Source of the DNA: Vicingaceae bacterium
GTDB lineage: Bacteria > Bacteroidota > Bacteroidia > Flavobacteriales_E > Vicingaceae
Length of the DNA: 41,627 bases
NCBI GenBank assembly: GCA_029251425.1
Contig: JAQXDJ010000440.1
Location: forward strand, 1-41,627
Reading direction: 5' to 3'
Below, piece after piece: positions 19,358 through 41,627 of this stretch. Under the pieces are notes generated by a model that was not told the DNA's origin, ran no database searches, and saw only the letters and a program-made list of their open reading frames with translations. Numbering within the stretch: the first letter of the stretch is position 1; each line of letters starts with the position of its first letter. The position numbers were made by a program, and so were the translations under genes.

Positions 19358-22300
19358 TTAATCAAAATATCCTGCCAATACAGCTGTTTTTTTGAATGAC
19401 TTTACATCTCCATCAGCACTAAAAGCTTCCACTAAAATAATGTAAATACCTATCCGCGCCTTTTCATTTCGCTCATTAATTCCGTCCCAACTAAAAGTTC
19501 CTGAAATACCTAGCAATTCATTTTGAATAAGGTTTTTAACTAGCCTTCCTTTTGCATCATAAACAATTACTGTAGCAACATACCCTGGTTCAGAAAAATT
19601 ATAAGAAATATTTAAAACATCATCTACACCATCATTATCAGGTGAAAAAGTTTCTGGTTCAACAACAATTTCCTCTCCCTCATTGTTTGTCATTTGATAT
19701 TGTGAATTTTCAAATCCAGGAGTAGCGAAACCTTCACCTTCTGCCGCAGAATGCCAATTAGAGTCATCACTTGTTGGCCTATCATAATCTATACGCTCTA
19801 AAGAAACTCCATCCTCACTATTTAATAATGCAAAATGCATATCATCTTTATAATGAAATTCATCCACAATTATATCTAAATTATTAATCAGATAAACATC
19901 TCCTTCATCATTACTATAAGTAGGAAAACTTTCCATTTGCAAAAATGCATCTGAAACCGAATTCATATAATCGTTTTCAACAGCCCCGCTATTTGTACTT
20001 AAGAGCACAAACTCTCCTGGTAAAATAAGTTTTGGATGTTCAATTAATGGTTTATAATTATCAATACTATCATTATCTAAATTAGCCAAGTTCCAGTTTT
20101 GCAAATCAATAAACTTATTCGAATTGTTGTAGATTTCTACAAAATCTACCCCTCCATTTAATGGGTTAAAGAGCACTTCATTAATGACAATATCTTTAGA
20201 CGAACCTTGTTCTGGTAAAGCAAAAATTGCAGTATTGTTAGATCCTATCGTGTTTCCTACACAATCGAAAGCCCCTGTTATTGTAACTGTATATTTTATT
20301 TGATATGTTAGTTTATTGGTTAAATGAAGTTGTACATTTTTCCCATCTAAAACCTCAACAGCAGTTATTGAAATGCTATTATTAATAACATAAATAGCTG
20401 CCAACATTCCTTCATTATCTAGCGGCTCACTAAAAGTGACCAGCACTGTAGAATCATTTAAAGCATTCGCCTCTGTAACTTGTGGTAAAACTACATCTGG
20501 ATTTGTTCCAAAAGCAGTGTTTTGTGTTCCTGGTGTTCCTCCAAAAAACTTTGTTGAGGCAATCCAATTCTCTGCTTCTCCACACGGGTTGTTAGGGTCA
20601 ATCATTTCTAAACTCCATCCACCATCTTTTTTATTATCATCTCTATACCACTCATCAAAATAATGTATCCTATGAATTAAGCTTGTGTCAGGAGCAAACA
20701 ATGTAATGTCATCTTCGGCATTATTTAAAGAGGGTAAACTATTTACTGTAATTACTTTTCCATAAGGAACAAACTCAACTTCAAATGAATTGTCACAAAC
20801 AATAATATGTTCTCCTGGTAAAATTTTACCTACATTAAGTTGGTCCATGCTTGTTAAATCTGCAATCCAACAATCGGTTAAATCAATAATTTTATTGGTT
20901 GTGTTGTATAATTCTAAATAATCTGCCAAAGGCAAACCGTTACTTGGTGTAGGGTCTGGATATAATTCATTAATAACAATTTCATATTTCTGAGGGGCTT
21001 TACCTATTCCAAAATCAATTGTGTTTGAACTTAATAGATTTCCTGAACAATCATTTGCTCCTGCAACACTTAAAGTATAAACCGTTGACGAATCTAATGT
21101 TGAACCTAATGTTAAATCTGCTCCTTGAAGGTTGTTATTTACAACAATGCTCATCACAACAATTCCGTTTGTTAATGTGTAAGCAGCATTTGCAATACTC
21201 GCACTATCCATTGTTTCATTAAAAACAACATTTATTTGATTTCCTGCCAAAATATTTACTCCTGAAATAATTGGATTATCAGTGTCTGGAGCATTGTTAA
21301 ATACCGAATTTAGTGTTCCTGGTGTTCCGCCTATTGCATCATTTGAAGCTATCCAATTTAACGAATTACTACACGGATGATTTGGGTTAATCCTTTCTAA
21401 TGTATAACCTCCATCATCTTTAACACCATCTTGATACCAACCAATATCATAAGCTACAATATCTAAAATGCTATTATTGTCATCCATTAATGTTAAACTA
21501 TCACCCCCATTCGTTAATGCAGAAAACGAACTAATACCTATTACATCTCCAAAAGATTGGTAAAGTAACGTATCATTAATATCACACAAAATAACATAGT
21601 TGTTCGGTTGTAAAATAAAGTTAGGCAGCGCTTTAACTGTAGTTGTATTTACAAATTTCCAGTTATTTAATACAAAGGTGTTATTTGATGAGTTATACAA
21701 CTCAACAAACTCTTCTGTTGGCAAACCAATTTGAGGGCTGGGGTCTGCAAAAATTTCATTAATAATTACATCACCATTATTGGGAGCTATTACTACCAAA
21801 TACGAAAATGGTTCAATTATTCCTGTTGTGGCATTCCCTAAGGAATCCTCAACATTGTTAATCGTTAAATTATAGTTTTGACCGTTAGTAAAAGGCGCTC
21901 CGAATGTTAAATGAACTATTGATGAGTCAAGAGCGTCTCTAACTGCTGCACTTGGATTTCCAAGCCCTAAATCTGCCGAATAATTAGTTAATGTTTGAGA
22001 GGTTGTTAATCCAACCGGTTCGTTAAAATAAGCGTCCAAAGTTGTTGAGCTTTGCACAACCAAAGAATCAATTAATGGAGAAGCTGTATCTCCAACAATA
22101 GCGCCTACGCTGAAATTATCAAAAAAATGTCCATTAATTGGACTTGCTGCTCCAGATTGCGTAATCGAAACACCAAAAAAACTAGAAGTATTTATAGCAT
22201 TATCAACAATCGTCCCTATTGTAACTAAACTACTTGCAGCGCCATCATCATAAAATAATGTCCAATTATTTGTTACATCTCTAGTAACTCTAACATTAAA

Positions 22301-22744
22301 AGGATTATTACTGCTGCTGTTTACACTACTATTAGGGCCATCAATTAAAAGCGTTGTCGCTCCTCCAACTATTTTATATAATGAAACCTCATCTGGAGTT
22401 CCTCCTATTCTCACAAAATATCCATCATTAGGTGTTGTTACGTTAGCAACGTCAGACATTAGATATACATCCACATAATTTGCTCCAGATGTACTAAACT
22501 GCATGTTAAAGAAAAAATCCCATTGTGCATTTACAGCTAAAGTTGATGGAGTGCTTAAGTAATAGTTGTTAGCACCCGTATTTTGGGAGTTTAATTCGCC
22601 AGCAGTTACTGTAAATAATCCTGCATCTCCACTCCATGTCGGATTATTAATAAAATCCCCATCCGAAAAATCATCTACAAATTGAGCAACTGATATTTGA
22701 GCAAACAACAAGCAAATACCAACATATAATAATTTTTTAATCAT
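19358..22744 (-). CDS. Large secreted protein with three lamin-tail domains, Ig-like (SbsA-type) segments and FlgD-like/T9SS C-terminal region
   Basis: VINEIFADPSPQIGLPTEEFVELYN, VINELYPDPTPSNGLPLADYLELYN, VINEVLFNPLNGGVDFVEIYN; C-term ETFSPDNDGVDDVLNI...FSWDGINERNEKARIGIYI. Confidence 0.85.
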   Translation of the reverse strand: MIKKLLYVGICLLFAQISVAQFVDDFSDGDFINNPTWSGDAGLFTVTAGELNSQNTGANNYYLSTPSTLAVNAQWDFFFNMQFSTSGANYVDVYLMSDVANVTTPNDGYFVRIGGTPDEVSLYKIVGGATTLLIDGPNSSVNSSSNNPFNVRVTRDVTNNWTLFYDDGAASSLVTIGTIVDNAINTSSFFGVSITQSGAASPINGHFFDNFSVGAIVGDTASPLIDSLVVQSSTTLDAYFNEPVGLTTSQTLTNYSADLGLGNPSAAVRDALDSSIVHLTFGAPFTNGQNYNLTINNVEDSLGNATTGIIEPFSYLVVIAPNNGDVIINEIFADPSPQIGLPTEEFVELYNSSNNTFVLNNWKFVNTTTVKALPNFILQPNNYVILCDINDTLLYQSFGDVIGISSFSALTNGGDSLTLMDDNNSILDIVAYDIGWYQDGVKDDGGYTLERINPNHPCSNSLNWIASNDAIGGTPGTLNSVFNNAPDTDNPIISGVNILAGNQINVVFNETMDSASIANAAYTLTNGIVVMSIVVNNNLQGADLTLGSTLDSSTVYTLSVAGANDCSGNLLSSNTIDFGIGKAPQKYEIVINELYPDPTPSNGLPLADYLELYNTTNKIIDLTDCWIADLTSMDQLNVGKILPGEHIIVCDNSFEVEFVPYGKVITVNSLPSLNNAEDDITLFAPDTSLIHRIHYFDEWYRDDNKKDGGWSLEMIDPNNPCGEAENWIASTKFFGGTPGTQNTAFGTNPDVVLPQVTEANALNDSTVLVTFSEPLDNEGMLAAIYVINNSISITAVEVLDGKNVQLHLTNKLTYQIKYTVTITGAFDCVGNTIGSNNTAIFALPEQGSSKDIVINEVLFNPLNGGVDFVEIYNNSNKFIDLQNWNLANLDNDSIDNYKPLIEHPKLILPGEFVLLSTNSGAVENDYMNSVSDAFLQMESFPTYSNDEGDVYLINNLDIIVDEFHYKDDMHFALLNSEDGVSLERIDYDRPTSDDSNWHSAAEGEGFATPGFENSQYQMTNNEGEEIVVEPETFSPDNDGVDDVLNISYNFSEPGYVATVIVYDAKGRLVKNLIQNELLGISGTFSWDGINERNEKARIGIYIILVEAFSADGDVKSFKKTAVLAGYFD

Positions 22745-36167: not shown

Positions 36168-37208
36168 ATGTCAAAAAAAGTAAGGTTAGGAATTAGTGTT
36201 GGTGACATTAATGGAATTGGAATGGAGGTTATTATTAAAACTTTCAAAGACAATCGAATGATGGATATCTGCACTCCAATAGTTTATGGATCTTCTAAAG
36301 TTTCTACATTTCATAGAAAAGCACTTCAGATTAATGACTTTAGCTTTAATATAATTAAAAGCGCCAAAGAAGCCAATGCAAAAAAAGCAAACATTATTGA
36401 TTGCTGGAAAGAAGATGCTGAAGTCACATTTGGACAATCAACAGAAACAGGTGGTAAATATGCGCTAGCATCATTAGAAGCAGCAACGGAAGACCTAAAA
36501 AAAGGAGAAATTGATGCTTTGGTAACAGCTCCAATTAATAAGGATAACATACAATCTGAAGAATTTAATTTTCCTGGACATACCGAATATTTAACAGATA
36601 AATTTGAAGGTGAATCTTTGATGTTAATGGTAAATGACAACATCAAAATAGGTGTTGCTACCAATCATATTCCTTTAAGTAAAGTAGCCAACACACTAAC
36701 CGCTGATACTATTTTTGGTAAACTGAAAATACTAAACAAAGCTTTAATTCAAGATTTTTGTATTACCAGTCCTCGAATTGCAGTTTTAGGATTAAATCCA
36801 CATGCTGGAGACAATGGCCTTCTTGGAAAAGAAGAAGAAAATGTAATTGTACCAGCTATTGATAACGCAAAGAGTATTGGAATAAACACTTTTGGGCCTT
36901 ACCCCGCTGATGGTTTTTTTGGTTCGGGAAACTACCAAAAATTTGATGCTATTTTAGCAATGTATCACGATCAAGGATTAATTCCTTTTAAGTCACTTTC
37001 TTTTGGTGAAGGGACTAACTTTACTGCTGGGTTAAATGTCATTAGAACATCTCCAGATCATGGTGTTGCTTACGAAATTACTGGACAAAACAAAGCAGAT
37101 GAAGGTTCGTTTAGACAAGCTGTTTATACTGCTTGTGATATTTATAAAAACAGACTTTTTGCTGCTGAAATTAATGAAAACCCATTGAAGCCAGCTAAAG
37201 GGAAATGA
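36168..37208 (+). CDS. pdxA: 4-hydroxythreonine-4-phosphate dehydrogenase
   Basis: GISVGDINGIGMEV; APINKDNI; FPGHTEYL; GLNPHAGDNGLLG; MYHDQGLIPFK. Confidence 0.96.
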   Translation: MSKKVRLGISVGDINGIGMEVIIKTFKDNRMMDICTPIVYGSSKVSTFHRKALQINDFSFNIIKSAKEANAKKANIIDCWKEDAEVTFGQSTETGGKYALASLEAATEDLKKGEIDALVTAPINKDNIQSEEFNFPGHTEYLTDKFEGESLMLMVNDNIKIGVATNHIPLSKVANTLTADTIFGKLKILNKALIQDFCITSPRIAVLGLNPHAGDNGLLGKEEENVIVPAIDNAKSIGINTFGPYPADGFFGSGNYQKFDAILAMYHDQGLIPFKSLSFGEGTNFTAGLNVIRTSPDHGVAYEITGQNKADEGSFRQAVYTACDIYKNRLFAAEINENPLKPAKGK

Positions 37209-40200
37209 CTCATACAAAAAATACAAGTAACCTAAAATTAAGACGCAAATATGCGTCTTTTTTGGCTTTGTCATTTGTGTTTTTTATGGCGTGCAACACT
37301 CAAGTTGTAGATGATGACATTCTTCCAAAATCTATCAAAGAATACCATATAGATTGTGATTTAGAAAAATTTCAAACAATGTTTGAAAACTATGAGAAGA
37401 ACAATTACACCCCTGTAAAAGTTACTTTTAATGGCGAAACCCGAACGGCTAAAATTCGTGTTAGAGGTGATACTTCTCGTAAAAATCCAAAAAAATCTTT
37501 AAAAATAAAATTTGATTCTTTATCTATTGATGGTGTTCCTAAAACATTAAACCTAAACGCAGAGTACGAAGACAAAATCTACATAAGACAATTTATCTCA
37601 AGCAAAATAATGCAAAAAGAAGGTGTGTCTTGTTTCAATTCTGAACATGTTAAAGTGTACTTGAATGGTAATTTTTACGGTTTATTCCTACAGGTAGAGA
37701 ATATGGACAAAAACTTCTTAAAAAGAAACAATCTTTCTACAAAAGGCAATCTATATAAAGCAACTAAAGATGGTGCTTGTCTGAGTATTTTTGATGATAT
37801 TAATGTTAAATGGGAGAAAAAAACAAATAAGAAAAGTGACCATAACGACTTATCTGAGCTAATAGATAACATTAATAATGTTCCTGACAGTAATTTTCAT
37901 TCTTTTATAAAAACTAGTTTCGAATATGATAAATTGATCAATATCTTGGCACTTAATATGTTTTTATCTAACAGTAGCACTTATTATCACAACTACTATC
38001 TATACCATGATTTGTATAATACAGGTAAGTGGCAAATGTTCCCGTGGGATATGGATAAGAGTTTATCGTATTATAACTGGATGCCCTACACCTATCACAG
38101 AACATCTAGTGAATGGGAATCTGACAACCCTCTTGTTGAAAGAGCAATTCTTTGCGAACCAATGTTTAATGACATCAAAAAAAGAATAGAAGAGCTTCAT
38201 AAATCACGATGCAATGACACTTATCTCACAGTAGTTATTGATGGGTTAACACCGCTTCTTAAAAATATCATCCCTCTAGATACACTCGATAAAGTCGTTT
38301 CTGCTAAAGAATGGAGTAAGTCTCTCAATAAAGAAAAAAGATATTTCAACAATCACTACAAACTACTTCAGCAACAGTTTAACAGGCAGCCGTTGAGTTT
38401 TAAAGTAGCCCGATTTACACAAGTACAAACTGAAAATGTTACTTTTAATTGGTCAACATCTGCTCATCCTGCCAATAAAAAAATCTCTTACACCATTGCT
38501 TATGGAACCGATTTTTTATTAGAAGATAGTTCTAAAACAAAATACATAACTAATATAACTGATACCTTTTACACATTAACAAAAAAACTTCCTGAAAATA
38601 CTTATTATTGGAAAGTAACAGCTTTTGATGGTGATTTTTACACAGATGGTTTCAATACTAAAAACATATTTGAGGTTAAAAAAGGAACGCCACTTCCAGA
38701 ATTAATTGAAACAGATTTAACACTTACAAAAGCTAACTCTCCTTATTCGGCTAAAAAAACAACTACCATCAATAAAGATGTCACGCTAACAATAGAAGCT
38801 GGTGTTGAAGTTCACTTAGCACAAGACGCTACAATTACATGTAATGGAAATTTAATTTCAAATGGAACGAAAGAACATCCTATTGTTTTTATGCCAAACA
38901 ACGCTGCTACCGAATGGGATTTTATTTATTTCTACGAACCTTCTGAAAAGGCTTATTTCAAAAACACGATTTTTAAAGATGGGACTTTGAATGCAAAAAA
39001 AACCAACCTAATATTAGATAGCTGTTCTATGTTAATTGATAAAAAATTTATGGGTGATGGGTGGAACGATAGAAAAGTCTTAATTTATAGTGGTGATGGG
39101 AATGTCCACATCAAAAACAGCTCTTTTGAAGGGAAACGAGAGGGTGAAGGTATTATTTTATTTTATGGTGAAGCTATTGTAGAAAACTGTCAATTAAATA
39201 ATGTTCCAGATGCTATAGAATATATTAGCATGAACAAAGGCCTTGTTAGGAACAACTATGTAACAAACTCTCCTGACGATGCCATTGATTTAAATAATTG
39301 TAACAACATTTTAATTGAGAACAATGTTTTGTTTAATAACACGGACAAGGGAATATCTATTGGTACTGAACAATATGGTGCATCTTTAAAAAACATTCAG
39401 ATTAATAATAATTTAATTGTTGGAAACAAATCAGCAATTTCTGTAAAGGATAGTTCTGTTGCCCACATTAGCAATAATACCCTCTTTAAAAACAAATACG
39501 GGATTAGAACCTACAAGAAACGAGAAGATTACACTAAAGGAGGAGAGGCATATATCCAAAATACCATTTTTGATAAATGTGATTATGAAAGCGCATCTGC
39601 AGATGAATTTTCTGAAATAGCAATTACTAATTCTATCGTAAGTAAAAAAACACTACAGGGAGAAAACAATATTACCAAAGACCCTAGTTTTGTTGATGCA
39701 GTTGGAAACAATTTTCATCTAAAGGCAAACTCTCCATGTGTAAGTTCAGGCAAAAACAAAGTTCACATGGGTGCATTTAGTATAAATAGTACTCCTGTTA
39801 GTTTTTCTAAACTACACCTAAAATCTAACATTGAAAAAAACACTGGCGATTGGATTGAGTTAATTAACAACTATAACATTCCCCTTGATTTATCATCATA
39901 TAAAATTGTAATTAAAGAAGGTGAAAAAAAGAAAGAGTTTGTTTTTCCAATAGGTACAATTTTAAAGCCACTAGAAAAAATACAAATTGTTAACGACTAT
40001 TATAAGTTTATCAAACACCATTCTTATTTTTCAATTTTGGGAGGATTACCAAAACTAAACACAAACAAATCAACAATACTTTTAATTAATACTAATGGAG
40101 ATATTATTGACACTTATAGTTATGGTAAAATTAGTTGTTCAAAAAAAGAAAGTATTACGTTAATCTCTAACGAAATCAATGATATTAATAAAAAAGAATG

Positions 40201-40219
40201 GCAAGTTTTAATTAAATAA
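37205..40219 (+). CDS. CotH kinase-like lipoprotein with FN3-like, right-handed parallel beta-helix and lamin-tail-like C-terminal regions
   Basis: IRVRGDTSRKNPKKSLKIKF, YGLFLQVENMDKNFLKRN, WQMFPWDMDKS (CotH); repetitive NNxx(V/I)xN beta-helix strands; GDWIELINNYNIPLDLSSYKIV (LTD-like); lipobox FMAC. Confidence 0.85.
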   Translation: MTHTKNTSNLKLRRKYASFLALSFVFFMACNTQVVDDDILPKSIKEYHIDCDLEKFQTMFENYEKNNYTPVKVTFNGETRTAKIRVRGDTSRKNPKKSLKIKFDSLSIDGVPKTLNLNAEYEDKIYIRQFISSKIMQKEGVSCFNSEHVKVYLNGNFYGLFLQVENMDKNFLKRNNLSTKGNLYKATKDGACLSIFDDINVKWEKKTNKKSDHNDLSELIDNINNVPDSNFHSFIKTSFEYDKLINILALNMFLSNSSTYYHNYYLYHDLYNTGKWQMFPWDMDKSLSYYNWMPYTYHRTSSEWESDNPLVERAILCEPMFNDIKKRIEELHKSRCNDTYLTVVIDGLTPLLKNIIPLDTLDKVVSAKEWSKSLNKEKRYFNNHYKLLQQQFNRQPLSFKVARFTQVQTENVTFNWSTSAHPANKKISYTIAYGTDFLLEDSSKTKYITNITDTFYTLTKKLPENTYYWKVTAFDGDFYTDGFNTKNIFEVKKGTPLPELIETDLTLTKANSPYSAKKTTTINKDVTLTIEAGVEVHLAQDATITCNGNLISNGTKEHPIVFMPNNAATEWDFIYFYEPSEKAYFKNTIFKDGTLNAKKTNLILDSCSMLIDKKFMGDGWNDRKVLIYSGDGNVHIKNSSFEGKREGEGIILFYGEAIVENCQLNNVPDAIEYISMNKGLVRNNYVTNSPDDAIDLNNCNNILIENNVLFNNTDKGISIGTEQYGASLKNIQINNNLIVGNKSAISVKDSSVAHISNNTLFKNKYGIRTYKKREDYTKGGEAYIQNTIFDKCDYESASADEFSEIAITNSIVSKKTLQGENNITKDPSFVDAVGNNFHLKANSPCVSSGKNKVHMGAFSINSTPVSFSKLHLKSNIEKNTGDWIELINNYNIPLDLSSYKIVIKEGEKKKEFVFPIGTILKPLEKIQIVNDYYKFIKHHSYFSILGGLPKLNTNKSTILLINTNGDIIDTYSYGKISCSKKESITLISNEINDINKKEWQVLIK
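37240..37263 (+). terminator. Intrinsic-terminator-like hairpin AAGACGCA-AATA-TGCGTCTT followed by T-run, inside the 5' end of the CotH ORF
   Basis: Direct reading: 8-bp perfect stem, 4-nt loop, uninterrupted Ts; 32 bp after the pdxA stop. Confidence 0.6.
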
Positions 40220-41627
40220 ATGTCTTACCTGAAAAAAATACTTCTTTTTATTATTGCCGCTTTAGCTGCTATTTTTACTACAACTCAGTGCTCATTTAAT
40301 AAAGAGTGGAGCTATGTTTTTATACCTAATCAAACAGAAAGTTTAACCCAAGCTTTTTTCTCCGAAATTACATGGAAAACTCCATCAAAGAACAGTAAAA
40401 TTTCTACACCTGAAAATAAAGAAGAACTAACTTTAATTCTAACACGAGAGTTTGCTGTAAATGACTTGGAAGAATTTACATCGATTTTATTAGAGTATGA
40501 TCATCGGTTCTCCACTGAAATTTACATTAATAATAAAAAATGTTTAACAAGACATAAGCACTTGATAACTTCTGAAAATCCAGGAAAAAACATTGACAAA
40601 CTTGATGTTTATAAATATGGAAATAAAAGAGTATTTATATCGAAGCTAGAGTTAGAGCCTTTTCTTAAGAAAGGGAAAAACTCCATCCATATTGTTATTG
40701 CCAATCTAAATGAAATCAATTCTTTCAGAATCAACAAATTATCTCTTAAACTAATTGATAACGAAACTCTAAAATCAGAGCGCGTTTTTACAAGCACTAC
40801 ACTGCCTATTTTAATTGTAAACACCAACAACTTAACTATTCCTGATGAGCCAAAAATTAAAGCTACACTAAACATTATTACAGGAAATAAGCTTAACAAA
40901 TTAAGTGATTCTTCAATTTTTCACAATATTAAAATTGAAGTTAGAGGAAATACCTCTCAGTCTTTTGCGAAACAGTCGTACAGTTTTAATCTTTATGATA
41001 CTAACTTTGTAAAAACTGCAAGCTCTATTTTAGACTTGCCCCCTTCTAAAAAATGGGTGCTACAGGGGCCTTATTCTGATAAATCATTAATTAGAAACCC
41101 ACTCACTTACTCTTTATATAGAAGCATGGGTAATTATGCTCCTCAAACGCATTTTGTGGAGCTCATTATCAACAAAAACTATAGGGGTGTTTATGTTCTT
41201 ACAGAAAAAATTCAAACAGGAAAAAATCACCTTAATATCCCAAAATTAATTCAAAACGCTAACGATAGTACAAAACATACTGGTGGTTATCTTTTGGAGC
41301 TAGATAGAAGCCCGTGGAGATCAAACTACCCTCCAAAAAATGACACGTCAGCGATTCCTGTTGCGTATTGTGTTTTTTCTCCAAAACCCCACAAAATAAA
41401 TACAGTTTTAGAACAAAAAATTAAAACTCAATTTAACACATTTGAAACACACCTATACAACAATGATAATCCTTTTAATTATTTAGATACTAATTCCTTT
41501 ATAGATTACTTAATTATTACAGAGCTAACCAGAAATACTGATGGCTACTGTTTAAGTACGTTTTTATATAATAAAGATATTAATAACCCTATTCCTAAAT
41601 TTTACATTGGTCCTATTTGGGATTATA
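40220..41627 (+). CDS. Second CotH kinase-like protein, truncated by window end (absent from the ORF track)
   Basis: ATG at 40220, open to window end: MSYLKKILLFIIAALAAIFTTTQCSF...; IKIEVRGNTSQSFAKQSYSFNLYD, KKWVLQGPYSDKSLIRNPLTYSLYRSMG, NYRGVYVLTEKIQTGKNHLNI, GGYLLELDR. Confidence 0.9.
   Translation, partial: MSYLKKILLFIIAALAAIFTTTQCSFNKEWSYVFIPNQTESLTQAFFSEITWKTPSKNSKISTPENKEELTLILTREFAVNDLEEFTSILLEYDHRFSTEIYINNKKCLTRHKHLITSENPGKNIDKLDVYKYGNKRVFISKLELEPFLKKGKNSIHIVIANLNEINSFRINKLSLKLIDNETLKSERVFTSTTLPILIVNTNNLTIPDEPKIKATLNIITGNKLNKLSDSSIFHNIKIEVRGNTSQSFAKQSYSFNLYDTNFVKTASSILDLPPSKKWVLQGPYSDKSLIRNPLTYSLYRSMGNYAPQTHFVELIINKNYRGVYVLTEKIQTGKNHLNIPKLIQNANDSTKHTGGYLLELDRSPWRSNYPPKNDTSAIPVAYCVFSPKPHKINTVLEQKIKTQFNTFETHLYNNDNPFNYLDTNSFIDYLIITELTRNTDGYCLSTFLYNKDINNPIPKFYIGPIWDY

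Follow-up and report, generated by a model that had tools for sequence, protein, structure and literature searches.

Do two adjacent CotH-like genes of a flavobacterium specify two exported protein kinases, or one kinase and a partner that lacks the catalytic residue? The stretch of DNA considered here, hereafter the window, is the entire contig C127 (41627 bases; GenBank JAQXDJ010000440.1) of an incomplete Vicingaceae genome (2.54 Mb in 463 contigs). Two open reading frames (ORFs) at its right end, here called cotH1 and cotH2, lie on the same strand downstream of pdxA, and an earlier reading of the letters alone, the sequence-only reading, had proposed that they encode two CotH kinases. That both are CotH genes with the quoted motifs is borne out, as the ORFs, Pfam and matches to the solved CotH structure 5jd9 agree. 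However, CotH1 lacks the catalytic residue Asp228 in every ortholog and is most likely, as predicted from its sequence, a pseudokinase. Thus, only CotH2 would be a good kinase candidate.

Two divergent members of the CotH family

The cotH1 gene overlaps pdxA by 4 bases, and its stop codon is followed immediately, with no gap, by the first base of cotH2. The contig end truncates cotH2, of which 469 codons are available; complete CotH2 orthologs measure 610-660 amino acids, and the missing C-terminus was not found on any other contig of the same genome. The genes and domains are as follows.

37205..40219, + strand: cotH1, 1004 amino acids, with a lipobox-like start, CotH domain, FN3-like linker, beta-helix and lamin tail domain (LTD); predicted pseudokinase (ORF, Pfam, 5jd9 match, 10 orthologs in the genus)
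37454..38362, + strand: CotH domain of CotH1 (hit of a hidden Markov model search of the genome)
39086..39526, + strand: right-handed beta-helix region, CotH1 residues 628-774 (Pfam PF13229)
39794..40126, + strand: LTD, CotH1 residues 864-974 (Pfam PF00932)
40220..41627, + strand: 5' part of cotH2, predicted kinase with an export-type N-terminus (ORF, Pfam, orthologs)

By homology, both proteins are members of the CotH family (PF08757). The Pfam model covers residues 84-386 of CotH1 (E=2.2e-50, 172.5 bits) and residues 239-469 of CotH2 (E=6e-36, 125 bits), against a cut-off of 23.8 bits, and CotH1 additionally matches the beta-helix (2e-14) and LTD (5.9e-10) families. The top PDB match for the pair is 5jd9, with E=1.1e-20 for CotH1 and E=2.3e-7 for a complete CotH2 ortholog of 654 amino acids from the Flavobacteriales metagenome-assembled genome NORP85. 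An NCBIfam scan gave sub-threshold matches only, and the N-terminal region of CotH2 had no credible match in Pfam or PDB and no carbohydrate-binding family. The two kinase domains share 25% identity (E=2e-8) and fall in different CotH clades, which rules out a recent duplication, as had been surmised from their divergence.

Both proteins are predicted to be exported, as judged from their N-termini and in line with the earlier suggestion. In CotH1 orthologs, a hydrophobic N-terminus ends in a lipobox-type Cys; those of CotH2 also have a hydrophobic segment at the start, but most of them lack a Cys of this type.

Loss of the catalytic aspartate in CotH1

In Bacillus subtilis CotH, D228Q and D251A each abolish activity (PMC7821199), and the active-site residues of CotH have been equated with D166, N171 and D184 of protein kinase A (PKA; PMC12189002). 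The correspondence used here is D228 with PKA D166 (catalytic), N233 with PKA N171, and D251 with PKA D184 (metal-binding). The B. subtilis numbering was moved onto the 5jd9 alignment by the spacing of these residues, which fits, as the 5jd9 sequence has an Asp 5 residues before the Asn (NFDGFVHN) and 23 before the Asp of PWD. Sequence alignment is the basis of every structural statement made here. The segments concerned are the following.

37976..37996, + strand: catalytic-loop segment STYYHNY of CotH1; its first codon, AGC, is Ser258 at the Asp228 position (alignment, pattern, residue check)
38048..38050, + strand: Asp282 codon of CotH1, the metal-binding Asp251 (PWDMD), kept (alignment, residue check)
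41540..41542, + strand: Asp441 codon of CotH2, the catalytic Asp228, kept (alignment, residue check)
41621..41623, + strand: Asp468 codon of CotH2, the metal-binding Asp251, kept (alignment, residue check)

Over the catalytic loop, CotH1 aligns with 5jd9 without gaps (LSNSSTYYHNYYLYH against TQNFDGFVHNYALYH), so that D228 is replaced by Ser258, while N233 and D251 are kept as Asn263 and Asp282. CotH2 reads NTDGYCLS...PIWDY; it retains D228 and D251 and has Ser in place of N233. The D228 residue is Asp in all 9 CotH2 rows of the alignment. The signatures PWDMD and PIWDY, which the sequence-only reading had quoted, are thus present, but they cover just one half of the catalytic site. D251 is retained in both proteins, whereas D228 is retained in CotH2 and lost from CotH1.

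In a survey of 138 CotH domain rows, mainly from 60 related genomes (37 of which have a CotH domain), position 228 is Ser in all 13 rows of one clade, the S clade, drawn from four families, Asp in 112 of the 116 D-type rows having a residue there, and His in 7/7 rows of a divergent third clade. N233 is replaced by Ser in 33 of 118 D-type domains. The remainder of the active site is well preserved in the S clade: G51, D86, N117, G122, N233, W250 and D251 are kept in 13/13 rows, N226 in 12/13, and R91 and E128 in 11/13 each. Moreover, the segment 250-290, which contains the active site, is the best-conserved part of CotH1 (mean pairwise identity 0.87 versus 0.73 for the domain). CotH1 has thus lost this one residue selectively, and its decay is ruled out.

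A clade of Ser228 proteins next to intact CotH genes

Within the genus, CotH1 is present in 10 of 14 genomes and absent from G005, G009, G011 and G012. In every genome whose contig runs on beyond CotH1 (G000, G002, G003, G004, G006, G007, G008, G010 and G013), the following gene is CotH2, with a spacing of 0 bases mostly and short overlaps in G003 and G006; in G001, the two genes are on separate small contigs. G046, from a second genus of the same family, shares the order pepA-pdxA-cotH1-cotH2. Conservation of the pair in relatives, which the sequence-only reading had made a test of its proposal, therefore holds for nine genomes of the genus and for this second one.

The Ser228 (S228) proteins form a single clade (Shimodaira-Hasegawa-like approximate likelihood ratio test, SH-aLRT, 100, in a quick tree with no bootstrap and several long branches), so one origin would suffice for this type. 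The clade extends to three further families of the class, represented by G076, G313 and G225 (loci L202, L203 and L204). In G076 and G313, a CotH with Asp228 (D228) is encoded by the next same-strand gene, within three bases. In G225, the S228 gene is followed by a gene for 177 amino acids and then by a frame-broken remnant of an LTD-CotH gene. This expected partner (L204:9791-11710) is broken by frame changes, which may be assembly errors or mark a pseudogene. Across the families f1 (represented by two genera), f32 and f62, the S228 gene is directly followed on its strand by a D228 gene, with a spacing within about 20 bases. The intact partners in G076 and G313 have Fn3-associated N-terminal modules, and in G313 also an LTD, and their clade is far from CotH2 of the window. 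The partners of S228 proteins thus belong to two different CotH clades. As the partner clade differs between families, it is the pairing itself that is conserved, and S228 CotH is coupled with D228 CotH even where the partner is another protein. Among other judgeable D-type CotH genes, 7 of 57 have a same-strand CotH neighbor within 1.5 kb; against this background the pairing gives a one-sided Fisher p of 0.0035 for three lineages and 0.0006 for four, counting the G225 remnant, for few lineages and a sample consisting of the genomes fetched.

A search of 395 genomes of the class and 396 of the phylum with a DNA pattern of the motif, which is silent on motif variants, revealed no further S228 CotH; the STYYHNY-pattern matches in G273 and G086 were rejected, as they are not in CotH genes. 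Together with its uneven occurrence, this makes the S228 type rare and patchy.

A putative exported pseudokinase-kinase pair

These results could be explained by an exported pseudokinase-kinase pair, with CotH2 as the catalytic member and CotH1 as its partner, functionally analogous to Fam20A-Fam20C; we regard the chances of this explanation as evenly balanced. CotH2 would be held at the envelope by its N-terminal hydrophobic segment and act as a kinase. CotH1, a putative lipoprotein with a beta-helix and an LTD, would bind CotH2, the substrate or both; it may activate, position or anchor CotH2 or carry the substrate. The likely target would be a surface glycoconjugate or an envelope protein, because the pair in the window's genus sits in an island with O-antigen ligase, carbamoyltransferase, glycosyltransferase and GH5 genes. 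The proposal builds on homology, the loss of D228 in CotH1 only, the conserved adjacency and the change of partner clade; to these we add, by inference, export, a physical complex, activation, a substrate and a supply of ATP outside the cytoplasm.

Fam20A-Fam20C is the precedent for a pseudokinase-kinase pair in the secretory pathway (PMC4421793, PMC5413348). There, too, secreted, atypical kinase-like paralogs are found of which one, without a catalytic residue, is kept with an intact one; its counterpart here is the adjacency of S228 and D228 CotH genes in three families, with a remnant partner in a fourth. In contrast to Fam20A-Fam20C, the window pair belongs to another Pfam family and is encoded by adjacent genes in bacteria, and its complex and activation are conjectural. 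As Pfam detected CotH and not the Fam20C family, the likeness is one of analogy and not of membership. The CotB-CotG-CotH module of Bacillus (PF08757; 5jd9/5jda) shares the domain family, with the D251-type Asp in both window proteins and D228 in CotH2, but the window proteins have export-type N-termini, are paired, include one without D228, and have no gene for a Ser/Lys-repeat substrate nearby. Secreted CotH proteins of pel/VTC-type clusters (Streptococcus intermedius SIR_1594, PMC12345266; Clostridium perfringens CP4_0465, PMC2879425) are likewise found outside sporulation, in surface loci, and some related clusters in the present set (L122, L126) also hold a second CotH without D228. The window pair differs from them in having no adjoining VTC-type gene and in belonging to different CotH clades. 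Consistent with the sequence-only reading, which had seen in the pair a candidate for an undescribed system, no description of such a pair was found in the papers searched for links of CotH to pseudokinases, lamin tail domains or the Bacteroidetes.

Several points weigh against the proposal. The label of pseudokinase for CotH1 hangs on a single position, and kinases with unusual residues sometimes turn out to be active. CotH2 has Ser at N233, a residue kept in CotH1, and its complete orthologs have Asn at D253, a pattern common to a broad subfamily that may or may not be active. The independent lineages with a pair are few (3-4), and S228 genes were found in only 1 of 4 genomes in f62 and 1 of 9 in f10. 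The pairs of G076 and G225 (f32 and f10) have no glycan genes as neighbors. An exported kinase would need ATP outside the cytoplasm, where none is expected. Finally, AlphaFold2 models of the CotH1 domain and of the NORP85 CotH2, built from two input sequences each, had a pLDDT (predicted local distance difference test) of only 33 and 36.

Genomic neighborhood and alternative explanations

The conserved upstream neighbor of the pair, known from the ORF list and related loci, is the following.

36168..37208, + strand: pdxA

Between pdxA and mnmG, the genomes of the genus have a variable island that contains, in varying combinations, genes for an O-antigen ligase-type protein (Wzy_C), a carbamoyltransferase, an SxtJ-like protein, GT2, a methyltransferase, a GDSL esterase, DUF6056 and GH5. 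These glycan genes make an envelope-glycan role of the pair plausible in this genus. The sequence-only reading had put forward large repeat proteins of the genome as substrates, but neither the window nor the surroundings of the pairs contain a gene for a Ser/Lys-rich repeat protein, and the neighborhood in the genus points to envelope glycans instead.

The pair may accordingly phosphorylate or otherwise modify an envelope polysaccharide and not a protein, much as Fam20B phosphorylates a sugar. Such a role, compatible with the partner roles proposed above, would fit the gene content of the island and the beta-helix of CotH1, a fold frequent in carbohydrate-binding proteins. It is also in line with the secreted CotH of the S. 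intermedius pel cluster, which affects Pel level and production as well as aggregation (PMC12345266). However, the G076 and G225 pairs are not flanked by glycan genes, and the N-terminus of CotH2 has no detected carbohydrate-binding family; hence we consider this option unlikely, if worth keeping in mind. Given these neighborhoods and the type IX secretion system (T9SS) sorting tails of two S228 proteins from other families, the shared core would be an exported S228 CotH with a D228 CotH and not the glycan island.

Alternatively, both proteins may be active exported kinases, CotH1 using another catalytic base and each acting on different surface proteins. The strong conservation of all other active-site residues of CotH1, including D251, would agree with this, as would the nearby acidic residues Asp269 and Asp284. 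However, the contrast between an invariant Ser in the S rows and Asp in nearly all D-type domains, together with the inactivity of B. subtilis CotH with D228Q (PMC7821199), renders it an unlikely account.

The adjacency might also have arisen by chance and been passed on vertically within a single genus, with the proteins acting independently, since most instances are from this genus and non-carriers lose the entire segment; however, such pairs recur in three other families, where the partner is of a different clade (albeit one broken), and set against the background rate of 7/57 this makes the idea quite improbable. That neither protein is an enzyme, and that the two serve the envelope in a structural or binding capacity, with a CotH fold and a pairing that reflects a shared structural role, would suit the absence of D228 from CotH1 and of N233 from CotH2 and its subfamily, the ATP problem and the extra modules of both proteins, but is very doubtful, as the near-invariant D228 and D251 of the D-type family, CotH2 included, are hard to explain without catalysis.

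Other CotH-type proteins in related genomes

The non-carriers G005 and G009 encode a CotH of the His228 (H228) type (980-999 amino acids) in the interval after pdxA (L229 and L230, compared with L066-L074 and window positions 36168-41627), that of G005 with a beta-helix. H228 proteins were not used as a second pseudokinase clade, as several stand alone and the alignment is less secure there. Three of them (L122:2533-5769, L126:4272-10019 and L162:562-5951) have an intact D228 CotH gene near them in the same orientation, immediately next to them in L122 and L162 and 1.4 kb away in L126; those of L122 and L126 adjoin genes resembling, by eye, the DUF4956 and VTC families. A further group of long CotH proteins of about 1360-1530 amino acids (L206:5762-10285, L208:3-4070, L209:1410-5999 and L210:4124-8698) resembles the beta-helix part of CotH1; at the Asp228 position, where the alignment is uncertain, these proteins show Gln or a gap. 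LTD modules recur in the CotH proteins of these genomes, and window positions 19358-22744 encode an exported protein of 1128 amino acids with lamin-tail-like repeats, as read by eye.

Implications

In a broader and more tentative view, which we hold to be somewhat less probable than its opposite, bacteria would have evolved their own exported CotH pseudokinase-kinase pairs, in which an S228 pseudokinase of single origin teams up with D228 kinases of different clades and controls the phosphorylation of surface glycoconjugates or proteins, as a counterpart of Fam20A-Fam20C. CotH is common in non-sporulating bacteria, yet the family is understood essentially in spore coats only. The natural, conserved loss of D228 beside an intact CotH gene offers a clean test of whether an exported pseudokinase controls an exported kinase, and the same test bears on what the pair modifies and where the ATP comes from.

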